A stretch of DNA of 64,000 nucleotides from Bacteroidota bacterium (GTDB lineage Bacteria > Bacteroidota > Bacteroidia > Chitinophagales > Saprospiraceae). Shown piece after piece: positions 10,221 through 35,770 of this stretch; position 1 is the first letter of the stretch, and the number at the start of each line of letters is the position of its first letter. Under the pieces are notes generated by a model, which saw only the letters and a program-made list of their open reading frames with translations, searched no databases and was not told the origin of the DNA. The position numbers and the translations under genes were made by a program. The stretch spans positions 1 through 64,000 of the forward strand of contig JASBVF010000012.1 in NCBI GenBank assembly GCA_030147525.1, in the 5' to 3' direction.

Positions 10221-10260
10221 ATTCAATCAATCAATCATCCACTCATTCAATCATTAACTT
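10221..10260 (+). repeat. Octamer-phased leader of miaE
   Basis: The 40 bp between the promoter and the GTG can be read as five consecutive degenerate 8-nt units: ATTCAATC, AATCAATC, ATCCACTC, ATTCAATC and ATTAACTT. The array contains no G at all, so the leader should be unstructured. Confidence 0.6.
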
Positions 10261-10845
10261 GTGAAGCTAAACCTCGACATCACCGTCCCCTCCCGGCCTG
10301 AATGGGTCGACGCCGTCATGGCTGATTTTGATGCTTTTCTGCAGGATCACGCTGACTGTGAACGCAAGGCCAGCGCCATGGCCATGAGTTTTGTTGCCAA
10401 ATACCCCGATCGCACGGAGATCATTCCCGAACTAATCGCCATTGGCATCGAAGAGCTGGAACATTTTCAGCAGGTTTACGAATTAATGGAAAGCCGGGGC
10501 ATCCAACTTGCCCACTCCATCGGACAGGACCCCTACGTCAGCGAATTGCTCAAGCGTTGCCATAGCGGCAGGCTGGAACGTTTCCTCGACCGCCTGCTCA
10601 TCGCTTCGGTGGTGGAAACCCGCGGGGCCGAACGCTTCCGGCTGGTGAGCGAAGCGCAAAAAGACCCGGAGATGCATCGATTTTATAAAATCCTGTGGGC
10701 ATCGGAGGCAAAGCATGGGCATGTATTTGTAAAAATGGCCCTGAATTATTTTGATGAAAAAACTGTGTACGACCGATTGGCCTGGTGGATTGAGCAGGAG
10801 GGCGAAGTGATTGACGGGCTGGAAATCAGGGCAGCACTGCATTAA
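10261..10845 (+). CDS. miaE: tRNA-(ms2io6A)-hydroxylase-like protein
   Basis: MiaE is a ferritin-like di-iron monooxygenase that hydroxylates the isopentenyl side chain of ms2i6A at position 37 of tRNAs reading UNN codons. The 194-residue product shows the iron-ligand pattern of the family: Glu in DCERKAS (near residue 38), ExxH in EELEHF (near 63), Glu in VETRGAERF (near 120) and ExxH in SEAKHGH (near 151). The start is GTG at 10261, directly after a G-free octamer leader. The agmatinase-family gene follows 32 bp downstream, so the two may be co-transcribed. Confidence 0.88.
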   Translation: MKLNLDITVPSRPEWVDAVMADFDAFLQDHADCERKASAMAMSFVAKYPDRTEIIPELIAIGIEELEHFQQVYELMESRGIQLAHSIGQDPYVSELLKRCHSGRLERFLDRLLIASVVETRGAERFRLVSEAQKDPEMHRFYKILWASEAKHGHVFVKMALNYFDEKTVYDRLAWWIEQEGEVIDGLEIRAALH

Positions 10846-10877
10846 ACTTTCACCAAAAAACATCCTGCCAAATAAAA

Positions 10878-11939
10878 ATGTCCAGAGAACATAAAATAGC
10901 CCGCTTCGACCCCTCCGACGTAACCGTTAAAAACGGCCACTTCATCGGTCTTCCTTTCGATGAAAAGGACGCCCGGATTGTTCTGGTGCCGGTTCCATGG
11001 GACGTCACCGTTTCTTATTCGGACGGCACCGCTACCGGTGCCCAAAACATGCTCGAAGCTTCCTCACAACTTGACCTGTTTGACCCTGACGTGCCGGATG
11101 CCTGGAAAATCGGCATCTACATGCGTCACCTCGACCTTTTCTGGCTGAACCGGAATGAGGAACTGCGCCCTATCGCCGAAGTGTATATCGATTTCGTTGA
11201 AAATGGCGGACACCCCGGCCAGGACCGGCAAATGGAAATGGCGTTGGAAGAAATCAACAACGCATGCTTCGCCCTGAAGACCTGGGTTTACCAGGAAACC
11301 TCCCACTTGCTGAACCAGGGCAAACTGGTCGGTATCGTTGGAGGAGAGCATAGCGTCCCGCTCGGATTCCTGGAGGCACTTGCGCAGCGGCACGACGATT
11401 TCGGCATTTTGCAAATCGATGCACACCAGGATTTGCGAAAAGAATACGAAGGATTCAGCTATTCCCACGCCTCCATTTTTTACAATGCTCTGAAAATCAA
11501 AGAAATAAGCAAATTGGTGCAGGTTGGCATCCGGGACTACTGCGAGGATGAAACGCAGCTGGTCAAGCATTCAAACGGCCGTGTAAAAGTCTGGTACGAT
11601 CAGCAAATCCGGGAAGAATTATTCGATGGGAGGAGTTTCAAAAAAATCTGCAAACGCATTGTTGCCGAACTGCCTAAAAAAGTCTACATCAGTTTTGATA
11701 TCGATGGATTGGAACCGAGCCTTTGCCCAAATACCGGGACGCCGGTTCCCGGCGGGCTGAGTTACCAGGAAGCGATTTATTTGCTGAAAATGGTGGTGGA
11801 TAGCGGTCGTGAAATTATCGGCTTTGACCTTTGCGAAGTCGCCGGTATCGATCATGAACTGGACGGCAACACTGGTGCACGAATACTTTACAAACTCTGC
11901 AATCTGATGGGCAAATCTGCCAAACTCCATGAATCCTGA
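10878..11939 (+). CDS. Agmatinase/arginase-family ureohydrolase
   Basis: A 353-residue binuclear manganese hydrolase of the ureohydrolase superfamily. Metal ligands are visible in GGEHS (near residue 154), DAHQD (near 180) and SFDIDGLEPS (near 273). Family enzymes hydrolyse guanidino substrates, releasing urea from agmatine or arginine or formamide from formiminoglutamate. The protein is about 40-50 residues longer than SpeB of E. coli because of an N-terminal extension and an insert near residues 85-130. The exact substrate cannot be read from sequence. Agmatine, feeding putrescine synthesis, is the likeliest; hence no symbol. Confidence 0.87.
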   Translation: MSREHKIARFDPSDVTVKNGHFIGLPFDEKDARIVLVPVPWDVTVSYSDGTATGAQNMLEASSQLDLFDPDVPDAWKIGIYMRHLDLFWLNRNEELRPIAEVYIDFVENGGHPGQDRQMEMALEEINNACFALKTWVYQETSHLLNQGKLVGIVGGEHSVPLGFLEALAQRHDDFGILQIDAHQDLRKEYEGFSYSHASIFYNALKIKEISKLVQVGIRDYCEDETQLVKHSNGRVKVWYDQQIREELFDGRSFKKICKRIVAELPKKVYISFDIDGLEPSLCPNTGTPVPGGLSYQEAIYLLKMVVDSGREIIGFDLCEVAGIDHELDGNTGARILYKLCNLMGKSAKLHES

Positions 11940-11987
11940 CAGGCAAAGCCTTTTCAACGTGATTGAACGGGTATGATCCAAAATTGC

Positions 11988-12545
11988 ATGACTGAAATAC
12001 TTCATTTTGACGAACAGCTCTTCCATCTCATCAATTCAGGATGGCACAATCCGTTTTTTGATGTCGTCATGCCTTTCCTTCGCAACAAGTATGTCTGGAT
12101 GCCTTTCTACCTGTTTTTACTCACTTTTTTATTGATTAACTTTAAGAAAAACGGGCTTTTCCTAGTACTCGCCCTGGCCCTCACCATTGGTATGGCCGAC
12201 TTTACGAGCAGTCATTTGATCAAAAAAAACGTCAAAAGGCTGCGGCCCTGCAAGGTCATCGAACGCCCCTCCGATCTTCATCTGCTGGTGCCCTGTGGCA
12301 GCGGATATAGTTTTCCATCCTCACATGCTGCCAATCATTTTGCCATTGCCGTTTTTCTGAGTCTGACCTTGGGAAAAATTTTTCGCTGGATCAGGTTGCC
12401 ACTGCTGCTTTGGGCACTCTCCATTTCACTGGCCCAGGTCTACGTTGGCGTTCACTTTCCGCTGGATATCACGGCAGGTGCACTGCTTGGCAGTCTGATC
12501 GGGTGGGTGGTGTACCTGGCATCCAGAAAATATTACCGTTTGTAG
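11988..12545 (+). CDS. PAP2-family membrane phosphatase
   Basis: The 185-residue integral membrane protein carries the three parts of the lipid phosphatase signature: KKNVKRLRPC (near residue 80), the PSSHA motif in YSFPSSHAANHF (near 108), and VGVHFPLDITAG (near 152) with the catalytic His. About five hydrophobic helices are visible. The family dephosphorylates phosphatidic acid, undecaprenyl pyrophosphate or similar lipids at the inner membrane. I preferred the ATG at 11988, which puts the FDEQLFHLIN start at the usual distance; an ATG at 11973 adds five residues. Confidence 0.87.
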   Translation: MTEILHFDEQLFHLINSGWHNPFFDVVMPFLRNKYVWMPFYLFLLTFLLINFKKNGLFLVLALALTIGMADFTSSHLIKKNVKRLRPCKVIERPSDLHLLVPCGSGYSFPSSHAANHFAIAVFLSLTLGKIFRWIRLPLLLWALSISLAQVYVGVHFPLDITAGALLGSLIGWVVYLASRKYYRL

Positions 12546-12734
12546 TTCCCCGTCTAATTGGTTTTAACAAACAACATAGCAGCATTGCCACGCTTGCCGC
12601 AAGTGAACAACCGCTTCTCTTGGATTAACTACATCCATAAAAATACAACGGAGCTAAACATTGGAAGGCTAAGGCTGTTGATACGGAACTGTTTTTCAAA
12701 ACTTTATGAAAGCCAGTTCAATAAAATAAATACC

Positions 12735-13511
12735 ATGTTCCGTCACTTCCTTTTTGCAAGCGCACTCCTTTTCATGCTGGTCATTTCAGCTTGCGGTATC
12801 AAATACCCTAAAAACATTGAGGAAAAGCCACCCGTCAGTCATGAAATCTGGGATGGACTTTTAAAAAAACACGTCACATCTATCGGTTTTGTAGATTACC
12901 AGGGCATGATCAGGGATTCAGCCCGCTTGAACGAATACCTTCACATCCTCTCAAGCGCCCATCCCAATAAAAAACTTTGGTCAAAAGATGAGCAGATGGC
13001 CTACTGGATCAATGTTTACAATGCTTTTACCGTGAAATTAATCGTTGACAACTACCCGGTAGCCAGCATCAAAGACATCAAAAAAGGCATTCCGTTTGTC
13101 AATACGGTTTGGGATATCAAATTCATCAACATCCAGGGTCAACAATACGACCTGAACAACATCGAACACGGCATCCTCCGGAAATTCTGGAAAGATGCCC
13201 GCATCCATGCCGCTGTCAATTGCGCCTCCTACTCCTGCCCCCGTCTCCGGGACGAAGCATTTGTTGCTAAAAGACTGGACGAACAGCTCGACGACTCGAT
13301 GCGCAAATTTGTCAACGATCCTGTACGGAATAAAATCACGGCGGAAAAGGCAGCCCTTTCCTCCATTTTCAACTGGTTCAAGGGCGATTTCAAGCGGGAT
13401 GCCGGTTCCGTCCGGAAGTTCGTCAACCAATATTCGACCATTAAAATCGGTGAAAAAACGGAGATTACTTACCTCGATTACGACTGGAGTTTGAACGATG
13501 CGAAGGAATAG
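12735..13511 (+). CDS. DUF547 domain lipoprotein
   Basis: The 258-residue product begins with a lipoprotein signal peptide ending in the lipobox VISAC (Cys near residue 19). The open frame extends upstream to 12558, but that part has no family resemblance, so the ATG at 12735 was chosen. DUF547 landmarks follow: AYWINVYNAFTVKLI (near 91), FWKDARIHAAVNCAS (near 153) with the conserved His and Cys, and a C-terminal EITYLDYDWSLN. The family is widespread and of unknown activity; conserved Asn, His and Cys residues suggest an enzyme. The lipobox places it on the periplasmic or outer-membrane face. Confidence 0.88.
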   Translation: MFRHFLFASALLFMLVISACGIKYPKNIEEKPPVSHEIWDGLLKKHVTSIGFVDYQGMIRDSARLNEYLHILSSAHPNKKLWSKDEQMAYWINVYNAFTVKLIVDNYPVASIKDIKKGIPFVNTVWDIKFINIQGQQYDLNNIEHGILRKFWKDARIHAAVNCASYSCPRLRDEAFVAKRLDEQLDDSMRKFVNDPVRNKITAEKAALSSIFNWFKGDFKRDAGSVRKFVNQYSTIKIGEKTEITYLDYDWSLNDAKE

Positions 13512-13555
13512 ACAAGTTGAAAAAGTAGGTCTTGGGGTAGTAAATATCGTCTCCC

Positions 13556-14248
13556 TCAATTCAACATGCGCACGTAGAGTGACCTCAAAGTTTGCGGTTG
13601 CGCAAGGCCCCAGGCCCAGAGGTTGAACACGACGAAGTTGGCAATCTGCACCCGAAGCCAGCTGTTTTGATCGTACTTCCGGGCAGAGACAATGGCTTTG
13701 CGAGGAACAATGAAATAACTCAGCCCAACCTTTTTGGCCTTTCGCAGAAAATCGTACTCCTCCATGACTACATGATCAGGATCGTAACCTCCAAGAGCAA
13801 GGAAATCACTTTTGCGGATGAAATAAGTTTTATCGCCTCCCTGACAGAAAAGCCAGGAGAAACGGGTAAAAAAACTGTTGATCCGCAACATGAATTTATT
13901 GGAATCGAAGCGATACTGAAAACTGCCGGTGCGCCAGCCTTCCTTCATCGCCGTTTCAATATCGCTGGCAAATGTTTCAGGTGGCTGCGTATCCGCATGT
14001 ACGAAATAAAGCACATCGCCTGCACTTTTCTCCACGCCAAAATTCATCTGCAGGGCACGGCCTTTCCCGGGGGAATGGATCACTTTTGCACCCGCTTCCT
14101 CTGCAAGCTGGCAGGTTGCATCCTTGCTGCCGCCATCTGAAATAATGACTTCGCAAACCTTCTCCCCACCATGCCTCAGCAAAAATCGAACAGTCTTTAC
14201 AATACTTTGTGCTTCATTAAAAGTGGGTATGATGATGGATATTTTCAT
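13556..14248 (-). CDS. Family 2 glycosyltransferase (TIGR04283-like)
   Basis: The 230-residue GT-A protein starts with ISIIIPTFNEAQSI. It has the nucleotide-binding IISDGGSKDAT (near residue 35), a DxD-like metal site YFVHADTQPP (near 83), and a C-terminal hydrophobic stretch. The GGDKTYFIRKSDFLALGGYD and VMEEYDFLRK motifs match the TIGR04283 subfamily, some members of which lie in arsenosugar clusters. No arsenic genes are adjacent, so the acceptor is unknown. It is convergent with the DUF547 gene, 44 bp away, with no clear terminator between. Confidence 0.87.
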   Translation of the reverse strand: MKISIIIPTFNEAQSIVKTVRFLLRHGGEKVCEVIISDGGSKDATCQLAEEAGAKVIHSPGKGRALQMNFGVEKSAGDVLYFVHADTQPPETFASDIETAMKEGWRTGSFQYRFDSNKFMLRINSFFTRFSWLFCQGGDKTYFIRKSDFLALGGYDPDHVVMEEYDFLRKAKKVGLSYFIVPRKAIVSARKYDQNSWLRVQIANFVVFNLWAWGLAQPQTLRSLYVRMLN

Positions 14249-14396
14249 TGAAATCGTGTGTTCCCGGCTAAGCTATGGCACCGTTTTTAGAAATAAAAAA
14301 GTGTGGCAAATTAATTATTCACAAACTTTAACTAATAACATTTTTCTATACGAACCAAGGACACAAGCAGTTTTTTTTTGACACGAAAATTTGGTT

Positions 14397-15521
14397 TTAA
14401 AATGCTTCCCGCACGGTCAGGTAGGGAAAAAACTCACCTTTTTCATTCCCAGCCACATCCAGCCGCAGGTTGATATGATCGTTTTTGCTAAGCATGAAGC
14501 GGAGACCTGCACCGTAAGTAAAATGCGCCTTTTGAGAAAACAAATCACCTGCTGTGGGAGACACGGCCCCCACCCCGCCAAAAGCAACGGCACCAAATCT
14601 TCCAAACAACTCCCGCCGGTACTCTGCCTGCATCATCCACAGGTTTTTATCTCTCAGGCGCCCCTCAAAGTAGCCCCGCATTTTTTTAGGCCCGCCAATA
14701 AATGCCAGTTGCTGGAACGGCACATCGCCCTGCGTGAAAACCAGCCAGGCATTCAGTGCCAGTATGTTTTTAGAGGTTTTTGAAAAATAGCCAACTACAT
14801 CAAGGGAAAACCGGGTGAAATTAAAATCGCTGCCGATGCCTTTCGCGTTCGCAAAAATTTCAGCTTCCGACCAGAAACCTTTCGTTGGGTAAAAAATCTG
14901 GTCCCGGCTGTCAAAATTCCACAACAAACCGGCGCCTGAAACAACCCCTCCCCTGCTCCCGGTTATCCCATTTTGAATGAGCTGACCATCGGCTGCCCGT
15001 TTGGTAATATTGTAATCATCCCACCAGTACCTAAGCCCGAGGTAGTGATGGGGCGCAACCAGCCTCAGCAAATTCAGCCGGATCCGGGGGAAGTTGACGC
15101 TGTAGGTTTCCTCGTCTGATTTTTCAGTCTCGTTACCAATGCCAAAAAACTGGTAAACGTAGCGGTAGTAGCCCAACTCACCGTTGGCCTGCCAGGTTTC
15201 CCTGTTAAAAAACACCTGAAAAGGCAGATAAATCAGTACCTGTTTTTCCTGTGTGTAGGCGAATCCAAGCTGCACCTGTGACGGACGCTCCTCGTCGGTT
15301 TGGCCCCGCATCCGAAAAGCGTAGAGCGTGGCAAGGCCTCCAGCAAGCCGGGTTTCAGGGGTATAGTAAATGATCGGGATGGGGATCAGGCTGCTTTTGC
15401 GAAACAACTTTTGCTGACGCATCGAATCGTCCTCCACTTCCTGACCGAAAAGCGGCAAGATGGCTGACACTGACAGCGAGAGCAGTAGCAGAAATCTGTA
15501 AATTTTTATTTTGCGCTTCAT
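14397..15521 (-). CDS. BamA/TamA-like outer-membrane beta-barrel protein
   Basis: The 374-residue product has a signal peptide (SLSVSAILPLFGQ) and then alternating strands typical of a C-terminal surface-antigen (Omp85-type) barrel. Motifs include RLAGGLATLYAFRMRG (near residue 53), LLWNFDSRDQIFYPTKGFW (near 190) and the lid-loop-like FIGGPKKMRGYFEGRLRDKN (near 260). There are no obvious POTRA domains, so this is the short, barrel-only form common in Bacteroidota. I chose the ATG at 15521, which begins the signal peptide; an upstream in-frame start adds ten residues. Function is unproven: transport or lipid handling at the outer membrane. Confidence 0.82.
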   Translation of the reverse strand: MKRKIKIYRFLLLLSLSVSAILPLFGQEVEDDSMRQQKLFRKSSLIPIPIIYYTPETRLAGGLATLYAFRMRGQTDEERPSQVQLGFAYTQEKQVLIYLPFQVFFNRETWQANGELGYYRYVYQFFGIGNETEKSDEETYSVNFPRIRLNLLRLVAPHHYLGLRYWWDDYNITKRAADGQLIQNGITGSRGGVVSGAGLLWNFDSRDQIFYPTKGFWSEAEIFANAKGIGSDFNFTRFSLDVVGYFSKTSKNILALNAWLVFTQGDVPFQQLAFIGGPKKMRGYFEGRLRDKNLWMMQAEYRRELFGRFGAVAFGGVGAVSPTAGDLFSQKAHFTYGAGLRFMLSKNDHINLRLDVAGNEKGEFFPYLTVREAF

Positions 15522-15584
15522 TGAATGTGTAAAATTATAACCGGGAGCCAAACCTAAACCGCTCTTTCATCAATAAAAAACAAC

Positions 15585-16319
15585 ATGAAAAAATCCAGAA
15601 TACCCCGCCTTACAGCTGCTCAAATGGCCGAAGTTGACCGACTGATGACGGAAGAATACGGCGTCCAACTCCTTCAAATGATGGAAAACGCAGGACGCAG
15701 CCTGGCCCTTCTTGCAGTACGGCGTTTTCTCGATAAAAAACCTAAGCAAAAAACCGTGGTCGTGCTGGCCGGCCCCGGCGGCAACGGCGGCGGAGCACTC
15801 GTTTGTGCCCGCAGGTTGCATGGTTGGGGCGCCAAAGTAACGGTTTTTATCACTGCCGATAACGATGCTGCTATGAGTCCGGCTGCCCTGCATCAACTTC
15901 AGACACTCCGGCGGATAGGCATAAAAATCAAAACAGCCGACGATCTGAAAAAAACTAAACCTGCCAAACTTGTCATCGACGGCGTGCTCGGATACAGCAT
16001 CAAAGGTACGCCAAGGGGAAACGCCCGAACAATGATCGAGTGGGCCAGCAAGCAAATTGCACCGGTTCTCTCCCTCGACACGCCCTCCGGCCTGGATCTC
16101 ACGAACGGGAAAGTACACAACCCGGCCGTGAGGGCCGACGCTACATTGACACTGGCGCTGCCCAAACGTGGTCTGTTTTATAAAAAAGCCAGGGAGGTAC
16201 GGGGCGAATTATACCTTGCAGACATCGGCGTGCCCCCTGAATTGTATGCCGAACCAAGTTTGGGGTTAAAAGTTTCAAAAAACCTTTTCGGCAAGGGGGA
16301 TATGGTGAGGATAGACTGA
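15585..16319 (+). CDS. nnrE: NAD(P)H-hydrate epimerase (YjeF N-terminal domain)
   Basis: This enzyme interconverts R and S forms of damaged (hydrated) NAD(P)H so that the S-specific dehydratase can repair them. The 244-residue protein shows VVVLAGPGGNGGGALVCAR (near residue 59), KLVIDGVLGYSIKG (near 128) and LSLDTPSGLDLTNG (near 163), which together define the YjeF N-terminal fold. The ADP-dependent dehydratase domain found fused in E. coli YjeF is absent and is not encoded nearby. The gene diverges from the BamA-like gene, 63 bp away. Confidence 0.9.
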   Translation: MKKSRIPRLTAAQMAEVDRLMTEEYGVQLLQMMENAGRSLALLAVRRFLDKKPKQKTVVVLAGPGGNGGGALVCARRLHGWGAKVTVFITADNDAAMSPAALHQLQTLRRIGIKIKTADDLKKTKPAKLVIDGVLGYSIKGTPRGNARTMIEWASKQIAPVLSLDTPSGLDLTNGKVHNPAVRADATLTLALPKRGLFYKKAREVRGELYLADIGVPPELYAEPSLGLKVSKNLFGKGDMVRID

Positions 16320-16434
16320 GTTTTTCACTGGCAGAATATAAAGCAACAGACGGTTGAAAATTATTCCACCAGTTGGAACCCTGCCAAAAAAGATAAATTC
16401 ATCCGGTGTCTGAAAAATAAATACCCAGAAAAAA

Positions 16435-16442
16435 TACCTTTG
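16435..16442 (+). promoter_or_regulatory. Candidate -7 box for the ZIP transporter gene
   Basis: TACCTTTG is an exact TAnnTTTG match, 22 bp before the chosen ATG. No clear -33 element is seen at the expected spacing. Confidence 0.35.
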
Positions 16443-16464
16443 CTCCCAAACCAAACTATTGCAA

Positions 16465-17199
16465 ATGCCCATCTGGCAATCCATACTTCTTATTTCGACG
16501 GTGCTGCTTGGCGGCGGTGCTGCATTTGTTTTCCAAAAAGAGAAGAAGAACCTTCTTCAATTGATCCTTTCTTTCAGTGGGGCCTACATCCTCGGCATTG
16601 CAGTACTGCACCTCATGCCCTGGGTTTTCGCCGGTGGCGAACATGAGCCCGGCATCTGGATTCTCGCCGGTTTTTTTGTACAGTTGCTGCTTGAGCAACT
16701 TTCTGCCGGAGTCGAACACGGCCACATTCATGCCCCCCACAAGTTTTCTGCCGGCTTTGTGGTTTCGGTGATGACAGGACTCTGCATCCATGCTTTTGTG
16801 GAAGGCATGCCGCTGAGTTACTACGGCGAATTTCACCAGGCAGAACTGGGACATTCGCATTCTCATAATCATTTATTGTATGGAATTGTGCTGCACCATA
16901 TTCCCGCAGCATTTGCGCTGGTGACTTTATTGCTGGTTAGCGGTCTGGATAAAAAGTGGGTGTTGTTTTGCCTTGCCATTTTTGCCATCATGTCGCCGCT
17001 GGGGGCTTCGCTCGCAGCTTCGATTGACATCAGCCCGGCATGGCAGAAAGGAATACTTGCCTTTGCAGTAGGATCATTGATGCACATCGCAACGGTTATT
17101 TTATTTGAAATGGACAACTCCAGCCATCATTATATTTCACCCAGAAAACTCATTGCTATCGGGGCTGGTTTGGGCATCGCAATACTTACTATTTTCTAA
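16465..17199 (+). CDS. ZIP-family divalent metal transporter
   Basis: A 244-residue inner-membrane protein with about eight hydrophobic helices. Helix IV carries the metal-binding pattern GLCIHAFVEGMPLS (near residue 112) and helix V carries LHHIPAAFAL (near 147); together they make the ZIP transport site. A His-rich loop (HSHSHNH, near 132) lies between them. A second His cluster (HGHIHAPH) near residue 90 is also typical. The likely substrate is zinc or another divalent cation, imported to the cytoplasm. The frame opens at TTG 16459, but the ATG at 16465 is the better start. Confidence 0.9.
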   Translation: MPIWQSILLISTVLLGGGAAFVFQKEKKNLLQLILSFSGAYILGIAVLHLMPWVFAGGEHEPGIWILAGFFVQLLLEQLSAGVEHGHIHAPHKFSAGFVVSVMTGLCIHAFVEGMPLSYYGEFHQAELGHSHSHNHLLYGIVLHHIPAAFALVTLLLVSGLDKKWVLFCLAIFAIMSPLGASLAASIDISPAWQKGILAFAVGSLMHIATVILFEMDNSSHHYISPRKLIAIGAGLGIAILTIF

Positions 17200-17398
17200 A
17201 ATACATGCTTGAAAATCACAACGTTAAAACAAGACCTCTTGCATAAAATTGGTCGGCTGAATTGCACGGGCAAAGAAAGGTATTTACTAATTTCGTTTTG
17301 AATACATAAAAACTCACAGTGATACATTTTGAAAAATAGCTACATTGGTGGTTTAATTCTGTAATTGAAGTAACCAATTTTTAGTCTAAACTCACGGC

Positions 17399-26430: not shown

Positions 26431-26485
26431 GTAAATTGTAATTGAATTTTAAAGTCTGTCATTACCTGAAACGGCCTGTAAAACA

Positions 26486-26493
26486 TACCTTTG
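26486..26493 (+). promoter_or_regulatory. Candidate -7 box for icd
   Basis: TACCTTTG matches TAnnTTTG exactly, 127 bp before the icd ATG. Transcription from here would include the whole octamer quasi-palindrome in the leader. No -33 element is evident. Confidence 0.35.
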
Positions 26494-26511
26494 GGCCGCT
26501 TTTTCCGGGTA

Positions 26512-26604
26512 TTTGTGTGTTTGTGTGTTTGTGTGTTTGTGGATTTCCGATGCTTTTCGTTCCCCAAACACTCAAACACTCAAACACACAAACCCTCAAA
26601 ATTT
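26512..26604 (+). repeat. Octamer array and inverted octamer array in the icd leader
   Basis: TTTGTGTG occurs three times end to end at 26512-26535, with a partial fourth copy. After 25 nt, five CAAACxxx-type octamers run from 26565 to 26604 (CAAACACT twice, then CAAACACA, CAAACCCT and CAAAATTT). The second array is an imperfect complement of the first, so the leader can form a long hairpin just before the icd start. Confidence 0.8.
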
Positions 26605-26619
26605 CAAACCAACAACGAC

Positions 26620-27885
<1,266 letters not shown>

Positions 27886-27990
27886 TTACGGATAGGCAGC
27901 CGGCAGTTTTTGTTTGCCTGCTATTTGTAAACTCCTACTGATTTGCGATCTTTTGTTAGCATACTTACTATATTAACAACTTGAAGAGGG

Positions 27991-28018
27991 GCGGTCCGAA
28001 TGGGCCGCTTTTTTTTTG
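27991..28018 (+). terminator. Intrinsic terminator of icd
   Basis: GCGGTCC (27991-27997) pairs with GGGCCGC (28002-28008) around a GAAT tetraloop, with one G-T pair, followed by nine T. It lies about 105 bp after the icd stop. Confidence 0.88.
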
Positions 28019-28103
28019 GTTGAGAGGGGTTGAGAGGGGTTGAGAAGGGTTGAGAGGGGTTGAGCGCTCAACCATCTCAACCCCTCTCAACCCCTCTCAA
28101 CCA
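28018..28103. repeat. Decamer-built long quasi-palindrome downstream of icd
   Basis: Four 10-nt units of GGTTGAGAGG (28018-28057, one variant GGTTGAGAAG) run into the 16-bp palindrome GGTTGAGCGCTCAACC (28058-28073). Inverted decamers (ATCTCAACC, then CCTCTCAACC twice) follow to about 28102. The arms pair over roughly 30-40 bp. It lies between convergent genes, right after the icd terminator, and shares TTGAGAGGGG with the hairpin at 1990-2023. Confidence 0.88.
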
Positions 28104-28110
28104 TAAAACC

Positions 28111-29191: not shown

Positions 29192-29352
29192 AACTTCCTT
29201 ATTTTGGATGCCAACTACAGGAAAGTGGATGCCAAAATAAGGAAAGTGCGTGCCAACTACAGGAAAGTGGACGCCAACATAAGGAAAGTGCGTGCCAACT
29301 AAAGGAAAGTGAGCGCCAACTACAGGAAAGTGGACGCCAAAATAAGGAAGCT
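29192..29352. repeat. 21-bp minisatellite with an inverted flank
   Basis: Seven head-to-tail 21-nt units fill 29206-29352, the first reading GGATGCCAACTACAGGAAAGT. Odd and even units tend to alternate between ACTACAGG and AAATAAGG cores. The stretch at 29192-29207 (AACTTCCTTATTTTGG) is the complement of part of the last unit, so the array could fold back. The rest of 28783-29418 has no supportable gene. One + strand frame reads heptapeptides (CQLQESG type) through the array, but coding is unproven. Confidence 0.85.
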
Positions 29353-29418
29353 GGCAATCACTTTAATGTCTTACAACCTCATTTTCAGCTCAAAATTTTT
29401 CTCACAAAAGACGGGTTT

Positions 29419-30933
29419 TTACGACTGCACATAATACATCTCCACTTCGCCGACATTTTTGGCGGGCACCTTGCCCCGGTATTCGCAGCTGAATTTGTCT
29501 TTCACCAGTTGGAAGGTAGAATTTGAAATATTGACCCGGCCGGCTTCGCCGCTGCTTTCCATGCGGGAAGCGACATTGACGGTGTCGCCCCAGATGTCGT
29601 AGGCGAATTTTTTGCTGCCCACCACCCCGGCTACGAGCGGACCGGTGTGTATGCCGATGCGGGCTTCAAATGCAGGCAACCCCTGCGCTACCCTTTCTGC
29701 GTTCCAGACGAGCAGGAATTGCTGGATTTCGAGTGCCGCCTCTACAACATGGACCGGATGACCACCGTCCAGACCGGGCAGGCCGCCGGCACACATGTAG
29801 GCGTCGCCGATGGTTTTGATTTTTTCAAGGCCGTGCTTGCCGATGATGCGGTCAAAGTTTTTAAAAGCATAATCGAGCGTGCGCACCAGCTCGTCGGGAG
29901 GGAGCACCTTTGATATTTCACTAAAACCCTTGAAATCGGTAAAAAGTACGGTGGCCAGGTCGTAATGCCGGGCCTCGGCGGTACCGTTTTTTTTCAGCTC
30001 ATCGGCCACGGCGATGGGCAGAATGTTGAGCAACAGCTCTTCCGAACGTTTGCGCTCTTCGTCGATGATGCGGTTTTTTTCGGCCAGTTCGGCGTTGTGT
30101 CTTCTGATAACCCGGTAACGTTGTAACAGGCCGATCAGCAGCAGGCCGCCCAGCCCCGCCACGGCGATGAGCAGGTTGCGCTGGCTTTTGCGAAGCTCCA
30201 GCTCGGCTTGTTGTTCCCGCAGTTCGGCGTCCTGTTGTTTCAGGATCATCTCCGACTGGGCCAGGCTGAAAGAGTCGAGGATATTGATAAAAGTAAGCGA
30301 ATCGAGCATGCGCTCTTTTTCAGAAAGGATCAGTTCTTTGCGCATTTGCTCCTCGGTCATGTTGGTAATGACGGCTTCCCGCTGGGCCATTTTCGACTCC
30401 AGCGTTGCCGTTTTGGCTTTCAACTTTTGCTGTTGTTCGGAGAGCTGCGTCACCTCCTGTTTCAGTTCTTTACCTTGCAGAATGGCGATGTCCCGCTCGA
30501 TGTCTTCGAGGTCTTTTTTCTTATTTAAAATGCCGGCAAGGATTTTCATGGCCTCCAGATTGTCCATGCGCAGGACGTCGTCGGCTGTCAGGGCATTGCT
30601 TTCTTCAAAGCTTTTGAACGCCCGGTTTTTATACACACTGCGTTTGGATTCCACCTTCATCAGCGCCTTTCCTTTCCGGTTGAGGGCCAGTGCCATCATG
30701 CTTTGCTGGTTGTTTTTTTTGGCAGCTTCGTAAGCTTTTTCTGACCAGTCGATGGTTTCGTCCAGCAGGTTTTCAGCGTAATACATCTGCGCCAGCGTGA
30801 GGGCGTCCATGATGTACTCCTGGCCGGTTTTGCCGGCCATGTTTTTTTCAAAATCCCTGATTTGCGCTGATTGTGCGGAAAGGTTAAAAGCGACTGCGGA
30901 GAGCAGCAAAAAGATTGTGTTGAAGACTTTCAT
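29419..30933 (-). CDS. TPR and class III adenylate cyclase membrane protein
   Basis: The 504-residue product has a signal peptide, a TPR-like helical region (about 30-130), a long coiled coil (about 135-240) and a transmembrane helix (LLIAVAGLGGLLLIGLL, near 255). A cytosolic class III cyclase domain follows (about 310-504). Metal Asp residues sit in VLFTDFKGFSE and IGDAYM. The substrate-selecting pair is Lys in LEKIKTIGD and Asp in FAYDIWGDTVN, which favours ATP over GTP. It should make cyclic AMP in response to a periplasmic input. No cyclic-nucleotide receptor gene is nearby. Confidence 0.9.
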   Translation of the reverse strand: MKVFNTIFLLLSAVAFNLSAQSAQIRDFEKNMAGKTGQEYIMDALTLAQMYYAENLLDETIDWSEKAYEAAKKNNQQSMMALALNRKGKALMKVESKRSVYKNRAFKSFEESNALTADDVLRMDNLEAMKILAGILNKKKDLEDIERDIAILQGKELKQEVTQLSEQQQKLKAKTATLESKMAQREAVITNMTEEQMRKELILSEKERMLDSLTFINILDSFSLAQSEMILKQQDAELREQQAELELRKSQRNLLIAVAGLGGLLLIGLLQRYRVIRRHNAELAEKNRIIDEERKRSEELLLNILPIAVADELKKNGTAEARHYDLATVLFTDFKGFSEISKVLPPDELVRTLDYAFKNFDRIIGKHGLEKIKTIGDAYMCAGGLPGLDGGHPVHVVEAALEIQQFLLVWNAERVAQGLPAFEARIGIHTGPLVAGVVGSKKFAYDIWGDTVNVASRMESSGEAGRVNISNSTFQLVKDKFSCEYRGKVPAKNVGEVEMYYVQS

Positions 30934-31215
30934 TTGGAAGTGTTTTTTAAAAAGTTTTCTCTGTGAAATAGCTCATACGTGCAAGGCGGATTTCAGTTGC
31001 ACTTATTTTATGAGAAACAAATTTCAGATAAAAAGCGGGTTTTACAGTAATTTTTATTGAAATACCGGTCAGCGTTTTTAGTAAAATGTCCTGTAACATT
31101 TCTTTTACCGGGCGGAGCCCTGCGGGAATTTTTTCGATATCGCCCGAAAAGCGTTCAAAGCATAAAGCCAAATCTCCCGCTTTTCTAAATTTGCAAAAAA
31201 CTAAACCGGCCAAGC
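30934..31215. other. Divergent intergenic region before GDPD
   Basis: This 280-bp gap separates the leftward cyclase from the rightward phosphodiesterase gene. It holds an exact TAAATTTG -7 box at 31186-31193, 23 bp before the GDPD start. No other structure was noted. Confidence 0.4.
31186..31193 (+). promoter_or_regulatory. Candidate -7 box for the GDPD gene
   Basis: TAAATTTG is an exact match to TAnnTTTG at a typical distance from the ATG. A -33 element is not obvious. Confidence 0.4.
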
Positions 31216-32130
31216 ATGAAAATAAATAAAAATCCACGCCACATAAACGTTGCCTTACTGCTTCTCTTCTTGTTTACCACTTTCACAACCTCCGCACAAA
31301 ACATGGAAAATAAAACATTCGACTGGCAGGGCCACCGTGGCGCACGGGGTCTTTTACCTGAAAACACGATCCCTGCATTTCTCAAGGCCCTCGAATTCCG
31401 GGCCGTTACCACCCTCGAGCTGGACCTGGCCGTTTCAAAAGACGGCATCCTCATCGTCAGCCACGAACCCTGGATGTCGGAAAAAATCTGCACCAAACCC
31501 GATGGCAGCCCCGTCACCAAAGCGGAGGAAAAAAACCTCAAAATCATGGAGCTGACCTACGAAGAAATCAAGCAATACGACTGCGGCAGCCGTGGGAATG
31601 CCCGTTTTCCGGAGCAGGCGGCCATGAAAACCCACAAACCTTCCCTCGCCGACGTGGTGAACGAGGTGAAAAAATATTGCTTCATGCGGAAACTGGATCT
31701 GCCCTCGTTTAATATCGAAATTAAAAGCGAGGAAGCGTACGACGGGGTTTTTACCCCGCCGATTGAGGATTATGCAAAACTGGTCGTCGAAGAAGTGCAA
31801 CAACTACTGCCAAGGGAAAAGGTGTGCATACAGTCTTTCGACGTCCGCCCCCTGCAAATCATCCATGAAATGGAGCCCGGCATTACACTTGCCCTCCTCG
31901 TCGAAAACCTCTCCGGCCCCAAAGCCAACCTCGAACGGCTGGGCTTTCAACCCGACATTTACAGCCCCTACTACAAGCTGCTGAGAAAGAAGCACATCAA
32001 ATCCCTTCATAAAAAAGGCATCCGTGTCATACCCTGGACGGTCAACAACCCGAAAGCCATGAAAAAACTCATTCGCAAAGGGGTGGACGGGATCATTACG
32101 GATTATCCGAATTTGATTGAAGCGCTGTGA
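31216..32130 (+). CDS. Secreted glycerophosphodiester phosphodiesterase
   Basis: The 304-residue product has a signal peptide (about residues 1-28, ending TTSAQ). The GDPD TIM-barrel starts with GHRGARGLLPENTIPAF (near residue 38), where His and Arg are catalytic. It continues with the metal-binding ELDLAVSKDGILIVSHEP (near 65) and ends with the typical GVDGIITDYPNL. The family hydrolyses glycerophosphodiesters to glycerol 3-phosphate and an alcohol, in the periplasm here. The palindrome at 32146-32180 lies just downstream and probably ends transcription. Confidence 0.93.
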   Translation: MKINKNPRHINVALLLLFLFTTFTTSAQNMENKTFDWQGHRGARGLLPENTIPAFLKALEFRAVTTLELDLAVSKDGILIVSHEPWMSEKICTKPDGSPVTKAEEKNLKIMELTYEEIKQYDCGSRGNARFPEQAAMKTHKPSLADVVNEVKKYCFMRKLDLPSFNIEIKSEEAYDGVFTPPIEDYAKLVVEEVQQLLPREKVCIQSFDVRPLQIIHEMEPGITLALLVENLSGPKANLERLGFQPDIYSPYYKLLRKKHIKSLHKKGIRVIPWTVNNPKAMKKLIRKGVDGIITDYPNLIEAL

Positions 32131-32145
32131 AGCTGGCAGCCCCGC

Positions 32146-32180
32146 ACGTTTACTAAAACTTTTAAAAGTTTAGTAAACGT
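32146..32180. repeat. 35-bp palindrome after the GDPD gene
   Basis: ACGTTTACTAAAACTTTT (32146-32163) is followed at once by its complement AAAAGTTTAGTAAACGT (32164-32180), with one bulged A. It can act as a terminator hairpin although it lacks a GC core and T-tail. Confidence 0.75.
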
Positions 32181-32220
32181 AAACCGGGAATTACCGGTGG
32201 TTCAATTGTAATCCCAAAAC

Positions 32221-32260
32221 CCCTTAAACCCTTAAACCTTTAAACCTTTAAACCCCCGAA
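32221..32260 (+). repeat. Octamer array upstream of a lipoprotein gene
   Basis: CCCTTAAA (twice), CCTTTAAA (twice) and the degenerate CCCCCGAA follow each other in 8-nt phase. The array lies 54 bp before the start of the lipoprotein gene at 32314. No inverted arm was found. Confidence 0.65.
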
Positions 32261-32313
32261 CTTCAAACCCCCAAAATTTCCTACCTTTCCTGTCTGACTT
32301 AAACTAACAAAAG

Positions 32314-33069
32314 ATGCATTTAAAAACACTCCTTTTTGCTGCCGCAACCCTGTTTCTCATTCAATCCTGTCAAACCGATGCCATTCAGGATGAAAATCCT
32401 CCGGCGCCCGGTTTTAACATCGAAGCCTCCGACCATCATGCCATCATCCTTGCCGATAAAGTCATGCAGGCCTTGGGCGGCCGCAAAGCCTGGGACGCAA
32501 CCCGGTATCTGAAGTGGAATTTCTTCGGCCGCCGCATTCTCACCTGGGACAAACACACCGGCGACGTGCGCATCGAATCATTGCCCGACAGCACCACTTA
32601 CCTGCTCAACGTCAATACCATGGAGGGAAAAGTCCGCCGCCGGGGCGTCGTCGAAACCAACCCGGATACGCTCAATATGCTGCTCGATCGTGGCAAAAGC
32701 ATCTGGATCAACGACTCCTACTGGCTCGTTATGCCATTTAAACTAAAGGATTCCGGAGTCACCCTCAAACACGTGGGACAAGACACCACCGCCGACGGCC
32801 GCCTGGCGGATGTACTGCAATTGACTTTCGATCAGGTGGGCGACACCCCCGAAAACAAGTACCTCGTTTACGTGGACGATGAAACCAAACTGGTCACGCA
32901 ATGGGCGTTTTTCAGGGATGCAGGCATGGAATCGCCGAACTTCGTCACGCCCTGGGCCAATTATAAAAAGTACGGCAACATCCTGCTCTCCGGCGACCGA
33001 GGCGAGCGGCAGTTGAGCGATATTGAAGTGCCGGAAAGCTTGCCCGCTGACATATTCACGGAGTTTTGA
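32314..33069 (+). CDS. Putative lipoprotein, LolA-like fold suspected
   Basis: The 251-residue product has a lipoprotein signal peptide (lipobox IQSC, Cys near residue 19). The mature part begins with a helix-rich segment (ADKVMQALGGRKAWDATRYL), then many beta strands. This layout resembles the outer-membrane lipoprotein-sorting (LolA/LolB-like) sandwich found in many Bacteroidota DUF6503-type proteins, but the match is by impression only. A candidate -7 box (TACCTTTC, 32282-32289) lies upstream and an octamer array precedes it. The PorE-like gene follows 127 bp downstream. Confidence 0.68.
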   Translation: MHLKTLLFAAATLFLIQSCQTDAIQDENPPAPGFNIEASDHHAIILADKVMQALGGRKAWDATRYLKWNFFGRRILTWDKHTGDVRIESLPDSTTYLLNVNTMEGKVRRRGVVETNPDTLNMLLDRGKSIWINDSYWLVMPFKLKDSGVTLKHVGQDTTADGRLADVLQLTFDQVGDTPENKYLVYVDDETKLVTQWAFFRDAGMESPNFVTPWANYKKYGNILLSGDRGERQLSDIEVPESLPADIFTEF

Positions 33070-33196
33070 GTCGCACAATTCAGGTTTTTCTATATTTTGG
33101 CAGTCGTTGTGAAAAACGAATCCCCCTGCGCCCCTTTCGCTGCACGTCAGCAGTGGCCGGAGCAGGCAGGAGCATATACAGCCAAAAAATTGATGC

Positions 33197-35164
33197 ATGA
33201 AAATTGATCTGAGAACTTTTTACCCCGCAGTATACTTTTTGTTGCTTTTGTTTTTGTCAAACCCTGCGTTTGCCCAATCAGCCAAAGCCTATGAAAAAGC
33301 AGGAGACAAAGCCTTCGCCGCCAAAGATTACCACGCCGCCTTCGTCCACTTCCGGGATGCGATGGAGCTCAATAAAAAAGACGTTGGCCTCTGGTTCAAA
33401 TACGCCGAAGTCACCCGCCAGTTCAACGCTTACGAAGAAGCAGAAGAGTACTACACCAAAGTGTGGACGAGCAAGGAAAAACAGGCTTACCCCATGGCGG
33501 CCTTCTGGCTTGGTCAGGTAAAAAAAATGGTAGGGAAATACGATGAAGCCATCGAGGTGTTCGAAGATTTTCTGAAAAACGAGGGCCGTGATGATTACTA
33601 CAGCCAATGGGCAAAGGAAGAACTGGAAACCTGCCGCTGGGCCATGCAACTGGAACCGGCAACTGACAAGCTCATCCGGGTCGAGCATTTGAGTAAGAAA
33701 ATCAATACGCCCTACTCGGAGTTTGGCGCTGTGGTGGCAGGCGACGAATTGTATTACTCCTCCTTTCGCTACGACTTCGATGGCGACACCCATCTCCCGG
33801 AAAGAAAACTCACCAAAGTGCTCTACTCGGAAAACCTTGGCAAAGGCCGCATCCTCACACGAGGCTTTAACGTTGATAAAAAACACACGGCTCATACCGC
33901 TTTCAGCACTGACCGGGAGCGGATTTACTTCACCCTCTGCGAGTACGTAACCTCCTCCGATATTCGTTGCGATATTTACTACCGGGAAAGAGACCGACGG
34001 GGCAACTGGGAGAAAAAACCCGTCAAACTTCCCGACATCGTCAACAAAAAAGGATACACCACCACCCACCCGGCTATCGGTTTCGATTCCGTGGCGCAAA
34101 AGGAAATCCTCTATTTCGTCTCCGACCGCAACGGCGGAAAAGGCAAACTCGATATCTGGTATTGCGAAATGGAAAAAGACAAGTTCCTGGAACCTAAAAA
34201 CCTGGAATCCGTCAACACGCCGGAGAACGACATCACGCCTTTTTTTCATTCCGCTTCGCAAACCCTGTACTTTAGCTCCGACGGGCGGCGGCCTTCCCTC
34301 GGTGGTTTTGATGTTTTTAAAATGAACCGTCAGCCTGACTGGGGCCCCATTGAAAACGCCGGAAAACCCGTCAATACCAGTTACCACGACCTCTACTTCT
34401 CCCTTGACGAGCCCGGTAATCGGGCCTATTTTTCCTCCAACCGTCCCGGCTCCTTTTACCTCGATGCCTCCAACAAGGCTTGTTGTTATGATATTTACCA
34501 AATGACGATCAGCGATATTCCGGAGGATTCGACAGGGATCATACCACCGCAGGTTGTCACCGAAACACCTCCGGAGACGCCCTTCATCCCGACCACGTTG
34601 GAGGATTTTCTACCGCTTGCGCTCTATTTCGACAACGACGAACCCGACAAGCGCACCACTCGTACCACCACCAAAAAGTCCTACGAAACGACCTACTTCA
34701 AATATTACGACCGGAAGTCTGACTACATCGAGTCATACACCAAACCACTCACGGAAGACGAAGCCAGTGAAGCGGCCCTCGAAATCGAGGAGTTTTTTGA
34801 AAATGAAGTAAAAAAAGGCTACGATTTCCTGCAGCTTTTCAGTGAAATACTTTTGAAACGCCTCGAAAATGGGGAGCGGGTGGAAATTGTCATCAAAGGA
34901 TACACCAGCCCCCGTGCCAAATCCGACTACAACGACAACCTCGCACAGCGCCGCATCAGCAGCCTGCGCAACCAGTTCGAATCCTACCGGGGCGGTATTT
35001 TCGAATCCTACCTTAAACATGGGAAACTGGTCATCTCTGAAGCGCCCTTCGGAGAAACCAAAGCCTCCGCCAATGTCAGCGATGACCTGACAGACGAACG
35101 TAATTCAATTTACAGCGTTGGAGCAGCGAAAGAAAGGAGAGTGGAAATCGTGGAGGTGAAATAA
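33197..35164 (+). CDS. PorE/OmpA-like envelope protein (TPR, PD40 propeller, OmpA domain)
   Basis: The 655-residue product has a signal peptide (ending NPAFAQ). TPR repeats follow (about 27-150, AYEKAGDKAFAAKDYHAAFV), then a PD40/WD40-like beta-propeller (about 165-430, with blades such as EILYFVSDRNGGKGKLDIW and LYFSSDGRRPSLGGFDV). A degenerate OmpA-type peptidoglycan-binding domain closes it (about 480-655), with VEIVIKGYTSPRAKSDYN and LAQRRISSLRNQF. This is the domain order of the T9SS component PorE and related anchors, though the carboxypeptidase-like domain of PorE is not evident. It probably links the outer membrane to peptidoglycan. Confidence 0.82.
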   Translation: MKIDLRTFYPAVYFLLLLFLSNPAFAQSAKAYEKAGDKAFAAKDYHAAFVHFRDAMELNKKDVGLWFKYAEVTRQFNAYEEAEEYYTKVWTSKEKQAYPMAAFWLGQVKKMVGKYDEAIEVFEDFLKNEGRDDYYSQWAKEELETCRWAMQLEPATDKLIRVEHLSKKINTPYSEFGAVVAGDELYYSSFRYDFDGDTHLPERKLTKVLYSENLGKGRILTRGFNVDKKHTAHTAFSTDRERIYFTLCEYVTSSDIRCDIYYRERDRRGNWEKKPVKLPDIVNKKGYTTTHPAIGFDSVAQKEILYFVSDRNGGKGKLDIWYCEMEKDKFLEPKNLESVNTPENDITPFFHSASQTLYFSSDGRRPSLGGFDVFKMNRQPDWGPIENAGKPVNTSYHDLYFSLDEPGNRAYFSSNRPGSFYLDASNKACCYDIYQMTISDIPEDSTGIIPPQVVTETPPETPFIPTTLEDFLPLALYFDNDEPDKRTTRTTTKKSYETTYFKYYDRKSDYIESYTKPLTEDEASEAALEIEEFFENEVKKGYDFLQLFSEILLKRLENGERVEIVIKGYTSPRAKSDYNDNLAQRRISSLRNQFESYRGGIFESYLKHGKLVISEAPFGETKASANVSDDLTDERNSIYSVGAAKERRVEIVEVK

Positions 35165-35254
35165 TGAGTAATGATGAATGATGAATGATAAATGATGAAC
35201 CTTAGCAAGTCGCTTGTTTATCATTCATCATTCACCATTAATCATTATTCATTT
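35164..35254. repeat. Quasi-palindrome between the PorE-like gene and ndk
   Basis: ATGAGTAATGATGAATGATG at 35164 opens a 36-nt arm of ATGAATG-like tandem units. After 17 nt, a near-complement runs from 35217 to 35254 (TTTATCATTCATCATTCACC and onward). The arms differ at only a few positions. The element fills the gap between two convergent genes and touches both stop codons. Confidence 0.85.
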
Positions 35255-35669
35255 AGAAACATTCAACGCCTGCGAAGTGGAAAGCGCCTTCGATGGCGGC
35301 ATTCTCGTCGGAGTCGGAGCCGTGAACGGCATTTTCACCTACGCTCTTGGCGTACTTTGCACGGATGGTACCAGGCGCAGCATCGGCAGGATTGGTAGCG
35401 CCGATGAGGGTACGGAAATCAGCCACCGCATTTTCTTTTTCAAGAATCGCAGCCACGATAGGACCAGAAGACATAAAATCCACGAGTTCGCCGTAAAACG
35501 GGCGCTCTTTGTGAACGGCGTAAAATTCGCCGGCTTTGGCTTTGGTCAGTTGTGTCATTTTCAGTGCAACAATCCGGAAACCGGCAGCAGTGATGTCATT
35601 AAGGATAGCGCCGATGTGACCTGCTTTCACAGCATCGGGCTTGATCATGGTCAAAGTTTTATTACTCAT
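35253..35669 (-). CDS. ndk: Nucleoside diphosphate kinase
   Basis: This enzyme transfers the gamma-phosphate of ATP to nucleoside diphosphates through a phospho-His intermediate. The 138-residue protein has the family length. It starts [17 protein letters not shown], and its active-site motif is [13 protein letters not shown] with the catalytic His near residue 115. The conserved [16 protein letters not shown] is near 55 and [17 protein letters not shown] near 88. The stop overlaps the edge of the downstream quasi-palindrome, and another octamer quasi-palindrome occupies the leader. Confidence 0.97.
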
Positions 35670-35674
35670 TGATT

Positions 35675-35770
35675 TTTGTGTGTTTGGGTGCTTGAGTGTT
35701 TGGGTGCTTGTGTATTGTCAGGCAGGGAAGCACTTCAAACACACAAACAACTAAAAACGCAAACACCATT
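35675..35770 (-). repeat. Octamer quasi-palindrome in the ndk leader
   Basis: On the + strand five 8-nt units of the form (T/C)TTGnGTG run from 35675 to 35714, opening with TTTGTGTG, the same unit as in the icd leader. After 16 nt, degenerate complementary octamers (CACTTCAA, ACACACAA, ACAACTAA, AAACGCAA, ACACCATT) fill 35731-35770. The element begins 6 bp upstream of the ndk ATG. Confidence 0.78.

Follow-up and report, generated by a model that had tools for sequence, protein, structure and literature searches.

Phased-repeat hairpins at gene boundaries in a Saprospiraceae genus often occur at the same addresses with different words

Tandem repeats with units of 5-11 nt, known as long simple sequence repeats (LSSRs), were described by Mrazek and colleagues and are discussed in the excerpts of PMC4679880 and PMC4060949 on which we draw. 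According to the same excerpt of PMC4679880, heptamer repeats of TAACTGA occur in Beggiatoaceae, Cyanobacteria and some Bacteroidetes, and the BOGUAY genome carries this one fixed heptamer in 169 direct sets and one indirect set. Repetitive extragenic palindromic (REP) sequences and hairpin-forming REP doublets (REPINs), linked to REP-associated tyrosine transposases (RAYTs), are dispersed, multi-copy intergenic palindromes that can form hairpins (excerpts of PMC3116915 and PMC3733652). Here we describe intergenic arrays of short tandem units in a window of 64,000 nt (the whole stretch of DNA analysed: positions 1 to 64,000 of contig JASBVF010000012.1, assembly GCA_030147525.1, a member of the Saprospiraceae; C13:1-64000 in our numbering), in its source genome (G000; 7.08 Mb in 59 contigs) and across 14 genomes of the genus, which is uncultured, with one genome per species. 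An earlier note on the window had drawn attention to six such sites and had explained them by slippage plus template-switch copying between the arms of each. Our comparisons suggest another reading, to which we give about an even chance: hairpins at gene boundaries may be selected for their structure and not for their sequence, and their arms of short phased units would be turned over by slippage together with copying between sites.

The gap sample of G000 covers 1.66 of its 7.08 Mb and comprises 1109 predicted gaps, which depend on gene calls from a simple hexamer script. A scan with a score of at least 16 and periods of 5-24 detected 69 arrays in 58 of these gaps; when every gap was dinucleotide-shuffled 20 times, the scan detected none, so the arrays exceed chance in the shuffle comparison that the earlier note had proposed. 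About one gap in 20 of the source genome carries phased arrays, mostly as hairpin arms (some sampled contigs were picked for earlier matches, so that array densities may be overestimates). The periods are 8 (28 arrays), 16 (13), 7 (13), 9 (4), 10 (3), 14 (3), 21 (2) and 15, 17 and 18 (1 each); 41 of the 69 arrays are of period 8 or 16 and 16 are of period 7 or 14. Coupling to inverted arms was counted, as were the word families discussed below, on 66 arrays, the three of periods 15 and 21 being excluded: the reverse complement of an 8-mer of the array occurs elsewhere in its own gap for 50 of the 66, against 4.4% in random other gaps. The corresponding values are 16 of 31 against 3.7% in the congener G007 and one of three against 8.3% in G004. 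Stems scoring at least 13 were found in 219 of 1078 G000 gaps of up to 600 nt and in none after a single mononucleotide shuffle per gap. The view of these sites as a recurrent class, coupled to inverted arms and sited in leaders and between genes, is supported.

As tandem repeats, the arrays are LSSRs of 5-11 nt: they exceed the shuffles, and most units measure 7-10 nt. Like the repeats described in the excerpts of PMC4679880 and PMC4060949, they are intergenic, run head to tail and mostly have a unit length that is not a multiple of three. They are set apart by the inverted partner that most of them have, by the fixed order in which their strands lie at gene edges and by their persistence at several addresses while the unit switches. 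The closest published description that we found is that of the TAACTGA heptamers, whose arrays often lie just upstream of start codons, with multi-heptamer gaps in some Bacteroidetes and shorter, repeat-free gaps in relatives; the excerpt of PMC4679880 describes neither inverted arms nor unit change at orthologous gaps for them, and two adjacent copies of TAACTGA occur in none of the 1109 G000 gaps. A search of the open-access literature, which did not extend to the original LSSR paper, found no paper on inverted phased arrays with unit change.

Orthologous gaps show the same address occupied by different words. In the ATP synthase operon, with genes assigned by Pfam, phased arrays occupy the atpH-atpA gap of 12 among the 14 genomes, with period 8 in ten and period 7 in two. 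The units of these arrays are of at least six kinds; in G003 and G005 the gap has an irregular hairpin and no array. The atpA-atpG gap holds an array in seven of the 10 genomes examined, every one of period 7, and the remaining three carry a short GC hairpin (G003, G005) or another palindrome (G006). Elsewhere in this operon, the atpF-atpH boundary has an array-like hairpin that is weak (L134:11333-11422, z -2.0), and another array-like hairpin lies past the terminator-like hairpin of atpG (L134:7963-8101, z -7.0 for the whole gap). Before gldB, nine of 12 genomes have an array (six of period 8, three of period 7), and at C56:216241, between the genes for myo-inositol-1-phosphate synthase and pgpA, all six examined have one of period 7 or 8, including G001 with period 7. 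In the leader of ndk, arrays are significant in six of 11 genomes, with GTGTTTG-like units in G000, AGGATTGA-like units in G007, G008, G011 and G012, and AGAGTTTG/AGAGAATG in G010; by eye, a decayed hairpin is present in G001 and G013, and none in G004, G009, G003 or G005. In G007 (L210, G007:C29 about 9600-9870), the ndk leader contains two tandem copies of the hairpin, loop included. The gene next to the 3' end of ndk varies between species; hairpin arrays occur on that side in G000 (period 7) and G005 (period 10), and hairpins of the ordinary terminator-like kind in G001, G004, G008 and G013. Significance at these slots was judged against 40 mononucleotide shuffles (p floor 0.024).

Pairwise, G000 and G007 have 31 orthologous gaps in our samples; seven hold an array in at least one of the two and six of these in both, with no shared unit by eye. 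Four of the six G000 members lie under the threshold of this comparison, and all four are significant in the shuffle tests. G007 and G004 have 24 orthologous gaps, with three arrays in G007 only and one in G004 only. Where an array persists at a slot, its unit length is largely retained and its letters change. Such occupancy points to conservation of structure and not of sequence, and argues for selection on structure.

RNA folding is consistent with this suggestion at most slots: z-scores of -3 or below were obtained for 12 of 14 species at atpH-atpA, 9 of 10 at atpA-atpG, 9 of 12 before gldB, 10 of 13 upstream of prfB (a set that includes G014, a different genus) and three of five at C56:216241. 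These slots and the ndk leader form the six-gap set used for significance, folding and arm co-variation, which leaves out G001 at C56:216241 and the whole slot C58:22373. The folds bear on a neutral account, in which slippage grows repeats of 5-11 nt, snap-back synthesis adds the inverted arm, selection merely trims the product at gene edges and the hairpin is functionless. Mismatch repair works best on loops of 1-3 nt, and some prokaryotes have an excess of 6-11 nt tandem repeats in their gaps (excerpt of PMC4060949); among long repeats, heptamers were the most frequent kind in the majority of genomes (excerpt of PMC4679880, citing Mrazek). The array load also ranges between 1.6 and 10.6% of gaps in three congeners (4 of 256 in G004, 58 of 1109 in G000, 32 of 301 in G007), and certain arrays intrude up to 10 nt into predicted genes. 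Strong folding at the two atp gaps despite turnover of the sequence speaks against the neutral account, as does the sharing of words between sites, which is unexpected under independent local growth. Since ordinary hairpins are common in this genome, arrays are absent from some species and one slot is poorly retained (all detailed below), we still give it an appreciable, if minor, chance.

The sharing of words also bears on the explanation given in the earlier note, in which every site evolves alone by slippage and by template-switch copying between its own arms. In 102 of the 1485 pairs formed by 55 G000 gaps, the two gaps share a 12-mer; column-permuted units gave a mean of 6.0 such pairs and a maximum of 10 in 50 runs. 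Linkage by 11-mers produced largest groups of 13 gaps (mostly GTGTTTGN; eight gaps by a strict word pattern), 10 (AATGAGNG), nine (AATGATG/GAACTAT) and six (AGGATTGR). The families are lineage-specific. GTAGGC words occur in 17 of 1109 G000 gaps and in none of 301 G007 gaps, and AATGATG-type words in 20 and two; conversely, GAGGTAT words occur in none of the G000 gaps and in seven of G007, and CGGATT in none and six, with AGGATTG found in both (nine and four). The claim that unit sequence differs between sites is accordingly true of most window sites, and fails genome-wide, where units recur at many sites. Similarly, the two arms of one G000 site resemble each other more than they resemble arms of other sites in family B (23.5 against 13.1; 11 sites, mixed subfamilies) and among the 7-mers (21.0 against 17.7; eight sites), but not in families A (18.7 against 18.4; seven sites) and C (19.5 against 19.4; six sites). 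With words shared between sites, families confined to lineages and no within-site excess in A and C, a word-spreading process seems needed in addition to local events, and the idea of units private to each site is not supported.

Arms of one gap do co-vary between species, as the note had anticipated. For the 65 species-gaps of the six-gap set, the mean score of a gap's own arms is 18.0, against 12.7 when the cross score is taken over the whole gaps of other species and 7.6 for shuffled gaps. Own arms exceed the cross-species mean in 50 of 65 cases (Wilcoxon 1e-8, which is indicative only, as species are not independent) and equal or exceed every other species in 17 of 65, partly through shared families. 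Quasipalindrome correction by template switching can render two arms complementary and co-varying. By itself, such correction gives no tandem units, no words shared between sites and no replacement of words. Sequence-directed mutagenesis is mentioned in the excerpt of PMC4060949. The co-variation, the presence of a matching arm in the same gap for most arrays, stems of 33-37 nt at 94-95% identity in the window and the greater likeness of own arms in family B and the 7-mers all fit sites that evolve alone; the excess of shared units, the lineage-specific words, families A and C, and one apparent replacement of a whole hairpin do not, and we regard that explanation on its own as improbable.

The apparent replacement lies before gldB. 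A AATTGTTG-type hairpin with a CAATTTCAACAATA arm is common to G013, G004 and G008, and G001 has a AAACCTGAAACCG hairpin instead (GGTTTCAGG...CCTGAAACCGAAAACCTGAAACCG). The flanks of G001 and G013 agree at 78.6% over 238 nt, the replaced part included, and the start of gldB is nearly identical. G001 groups in the same clade as these three species, with weak inner support; the tree was built from four proteins (only three in the case of G002), support is 34-69 at five of its nodes, and it does not contain G006 or G011. With each place counted once, irrespective of its position relative to genes, the arm of the G001 hairpin has matches at no fewer than 19 further places in G001 (reaching 97% over 30 nt), at least five places in G013 (78% complete) and at least six in G004, and none in G012 among the candidates scored. 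From these alignments, the G001 hairpin looks to have been replaced whole, both arms together, by a word that was already dispersed.

Array hairpins also have an orientation. On whichever strand a gap is read from left to right, the gene edge is followed by a G-rich array, a loop, a C-rich array and then the other gene edge. In G000, 32 of 38 G-type arrays lie nearer the left gene and 29 of 31 C-type arrays nearer the right gene; 30 of the 38 and 22 of the 31 are no more than 15 nt away from the predicted gene on their side. The array gaps whose stem scores at least 13 comprise 31 G-first hairpins, one C-first and one tie, against 122 G-first, 44 C-first and 20 ties in other gaps; in G007, 15 of 18 G-type arrays are on the left, 11 of 12 C-type arrays are on the right, and G-first to C-first stands at 14 to 0. 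The bias is found near gene edges (28 to 0 for array hairpins; 78 to 19 with seven ties for non-array hairpins). Non-array hairpins at least 40 nt from both edges show none (8 to 6, three ties), and the sole array hairpin so placed is C-first. Upstream of start codons, hairpin-free gaps contain G at 0.118 and C at 0.232, and there is no skew after stops (0.216 and 0.201); avoidance of G before starts is the likely source of the order. The supply of stop codons by arrays was considered as another cause and set aside on a single counterexample, a G-first hairpin that has no stop codons (GAAATTGGG, L010).

Hairpins at gene edges could simply be intrinsic transcription terminators with unusually long stems. 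Convergent gaps have about 15 times as many stems scoring at least 13 per kb as divergent gaps do (4.22 against 0.29), and a T-run accompanies five of the 33 array hairpins, on one strand. The other 28, however, lack a T-run on either strand and so do not have the form of a stem-loop followed by a T-run (47 of 186 non-array hairpins do carry a T-run). Enrichment of arrays by context is weak when counted per gap, at 3.6% of divergent, 4.8% of ++, 5.7% of convergent and 6.2% of -- gaps, with divergent gaps about twice as long. Array hairpins moreover sit between atpH, atpA and atpG and in the ndk leader, and their position inside the atp operon speaks against termination there. Ordinary hairpins with a T-run stand beside arrays after atpG and at 27984-28017 of the window; the latter (z -4.1) immediately precedes the array at 28018 and is absent from the list of a consensus terminator scan. 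Termination is in our view a poor explanation, ranking slightly below evolution of each site alone.

A hairpin selected for structure could be maintained as follows. Slippage within an arm would lengthen and shuffle its units, and arms of one unit would still pair in a shifted register, so that the hairpin would survive insertions and deletions. Occasionally, a whole hairpin may be overwritten from another site through short shared words, by ectopic template switching or gene conversion. The transcribed hairpin might act as an intercistronic, 3'-end or leader element in mRNA stability or processing, in which case selection would act on pairing only. Avoidance of G upstream of start codons would set the G-first order, which would then be passed on within a family. 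A stronger version is more tentative, and we consider it clearly less probable than the general reading: a population of hairpins would keep address, period and pairing and exchange its words by active spread, sweeping lineage by lineage in the manner of satellite homogenisation, here on functional RNA hairpins such as those of the atp operon. Active spread of this kind could proceed by ectopic template switching or by an unknown enzyme. If selection on structure is the right reading, the arrays would represent a class of regulatory or stabilising hairpins that escapes conservation searches since only address, unit length and pairing are retained; they would offer a natural system for slippage, palindrome formation and between-site copying in bacteria, and would mean that intergenic conservation scores can overlook functional structure.

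Several observations weigh against selection on structure. At C58:22373, before an acetyl-CoA synthetase-like gene, clear arrays occur in only three of the eight genomes examined (G000, G007 and G011), G008 is marginal, and no array was found in G001, G004, G010 or G012; this poor occupancy lowered our confidence from slightly better than even. Upstream of prfB, three of 13 species have a phased hairpin, though most have a hairpin of some, differing, sequence. G000 and G004 have 39 orthologous gaps; four of them hold an array in G000 but not in G004, no gap holds one in both species, and arrays are evidently dispensable, given the few in G004 and their absence from both atp gaps in G003 and G005. 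The slots themselves are a non-random sample, having been selected for arrays in G000 or G007 or for adjoining ndk. In the ndk leader, folding reaches a z-score of -3 or below in five of 11 species, on sequence cut to 140 nt, and hairpins are common in this genome, as 31 of 80 array-free same-strand gaps of G000 (39%) fold this strongly. Arms at atpH-atpA match well (score of at least 13) in only 10 of 14 genomes, and in G008 and G012 they carry differing variants of one word. Convergent array gaps are G-first at 7 to 0, which start-codon composition does not account for and which may reflect inheritance of the order by the family. Finally, between-site copying is proposed from the sharing of families and a single apparent replacement.

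Dispersed palindromes raise the further question of REP-like elements mobilised by RAYTs. G000 encodes two proteins of the REP_Tyr_transpos family (NF047646; 97.9 and 93.5 bits against a cut-off of 80), a third below it (49.4) and a fourth Y1 protein that is IS200-like (74.3 over 55). Palindromes are dispersed in the genome, and a period-7 array lies outside both flanks of one RAYT gene (L182). However, REPs are palindromes of 20-40 bp in superfamilies tagged by GTAG or CGTC, with a cognate transposase (excerpts of PMC3116915 and PMC3733652), and the arrays have no constant sequence: units and loops vary between sites and, at one site, between species. GTAG, the tag searched, lies within 6 nt of the foot in three of 33 array hairpins. 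By eye, the palindromes beside the Y1 genes are rich in GC and differ in sequence from the arrays (GCAAGTG...CACTTGC, CCGGGT...ACCCGG). Matches to PF01797 number at least nine in G007 and at least eight in G009, with none in G002 or G013 among the candidates scored, yet G002 (assembly 89% complete) and G013 (78%) have atpH-atpA arrays. We consider mobilisation by RAYTs very improbable. With regard to transposons and miniature inverted-repeat transposable elements, the loops are not conserved, and G001 shows replacement and not a clean insertion. Such GC-rich palindromes, unlike the arrays in sequence, lie near at least three of the four G000 Y1 genes, and a period-7 array lies on one side of the IS200-like gene (L179). 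The palindromes adjoining the Y1 genes L180, L181, L182 and L179 (for example GCAAGTGTTGAGCGCAGCGGCACTTGC and GGCCGGGTTATTTACCCGGCG) are also found at other places in the sample and are probably true REP families.

In a wider sample of taxa, inverted arrays are rare and patchy. Among 80 Ndk loci (groups assigned by hand from titles), inverted arrays of period 7-10 were found in six of 353 gaps of Saprospiraceae and relatives, of which L010, itself in the genus, contributes three; in none of 208 gaps of Flavobacteriia; in three of 164 of Chitinophagaceae, all in Chitinophaga solisilvae with period 7 (L035); and in one of 57 others. A phylum-wide search with the window hairpin at 26505-26604, limited to at most the best three candidates per genome, matched its own genome and at least four of 295 other genomes, with weak and partial matches of 24-38 nt. 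An Rfam search of the window gave no match above gathering scores.

Within the window, Tandem Repeats Finder (TRF) recovered a tandem array at each of the six sites of the earlier note, and TRF together with folding bears out a second, inverted array at four of them. In the divergent gap 26431-26619, upstream of a gene of the isocitrate/isopropylmalate dehydrogenase family (PF00180), a hairpin at 26512-26600 (fold z -9.13) consists of a G-type arm at 26512-26541, (TTTGTGTG)3.8 of period 8 with 100% matches, a loop at 26542-26564 and an inverted C-type arm at 26565-26600, (CAAACACT)4.5 with 89%. The convergent gap 27886-28110 contains a G-type arm at 28018-28064, (GGTTGAGAGG)4.7 of period 10 with 94%, and its inverted C-type partner at 28067-28102, (CTCAACCCCT)3.7 of period 10 with 92% (fold z -11.96). 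Between a TPR/PD40 gene (Pfam) and the convergent ndk, a G-type arm of period 7 (AATGATG) spans 35162-35199 (TRF 35170-35199, 91%; fold z -8.75) and overlaps the stop codon of the upstream gene; its inverted C-type partner of period 7 (35220-35253, 85%) extends to the ndk stop codon. The fourth pair, in the 5' leader of ndk, has a G-type arm, read on the + strand, at 35676-35710 (TRF period 16, that is 2 x 8, with 94%; fold z -3.73) and an inverted C-type arm at 35736-35766 (72%, with 16% indels). A sequence TTTACTTTTGCGC at 35781-35793 on the - strand is conserved in the orthologous gaps of most of the genus; it is a putative Bacteroidota-type promoter core of ndk, and if this is right the leader hairpin lies within the 5' untranslated region. 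Sites 26512 and 35676 have GTGTTTG-like words in common. An inverted-repeat scan of the window gave 37 pairs, and the best 25 include three of the array sites (37 nt at 95%, 33 nt at 94% and 35 nt at 83%) and not the pair at 35676.

The two remaining sites are single arrays. At 32221-32255, upstream of a gene at 32314, a lone C-type array of period 8, (CCCTTAAA)4.4 with 92% matches, has no inverted partner and a fold of 0 kcal/mol. At 10221-10255, directly upstream of a MiaE-family gene (PF06175; 10261-10845, + strand), lies a decayed C-type array of period 8 (ATTCAATC; TRF 4.4 copies, 77% matches), below the thresholds of our custom array detector, with no inverted arm seen and no stable fold. 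The inverted-repeat scan also located the hairpin upstream of prfB (release factor RF-2; PF00472/PF03462) at 37867-37930.

Other repeats were noted alongside these. A 21-bp tandem repeat (TGGATGCCAACTACAGGAAAG) at 29205-29349, with 6.5 copies and higher-order periods of 42 and 63, falls outside the octamer class and occupies either a gap or a short unrecognised gene. In G010 (contig C391; L305, right of the middle), a near-perfect palindrome of 68 nt with a 22-nt loop (TTGGTAGCACAGCG...) lies in a gap that has array hairpins in some other species. Hairpins with a looser periodicity of 9-10 nt (AGGATTGGATCACGGATTGGGCGGAT..., TCCCGCAGATTTCGCAGATTT, AACACATAAGACACATAAGG) occur in the G000 gaps C56:146851, C56:182619, C56:184720, C16:175831, C59b:3390, C56:2739 and C19:201714. 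Words like theirs occur in other phyla, and these hairpins are perhaps a relaxed form of the array class.

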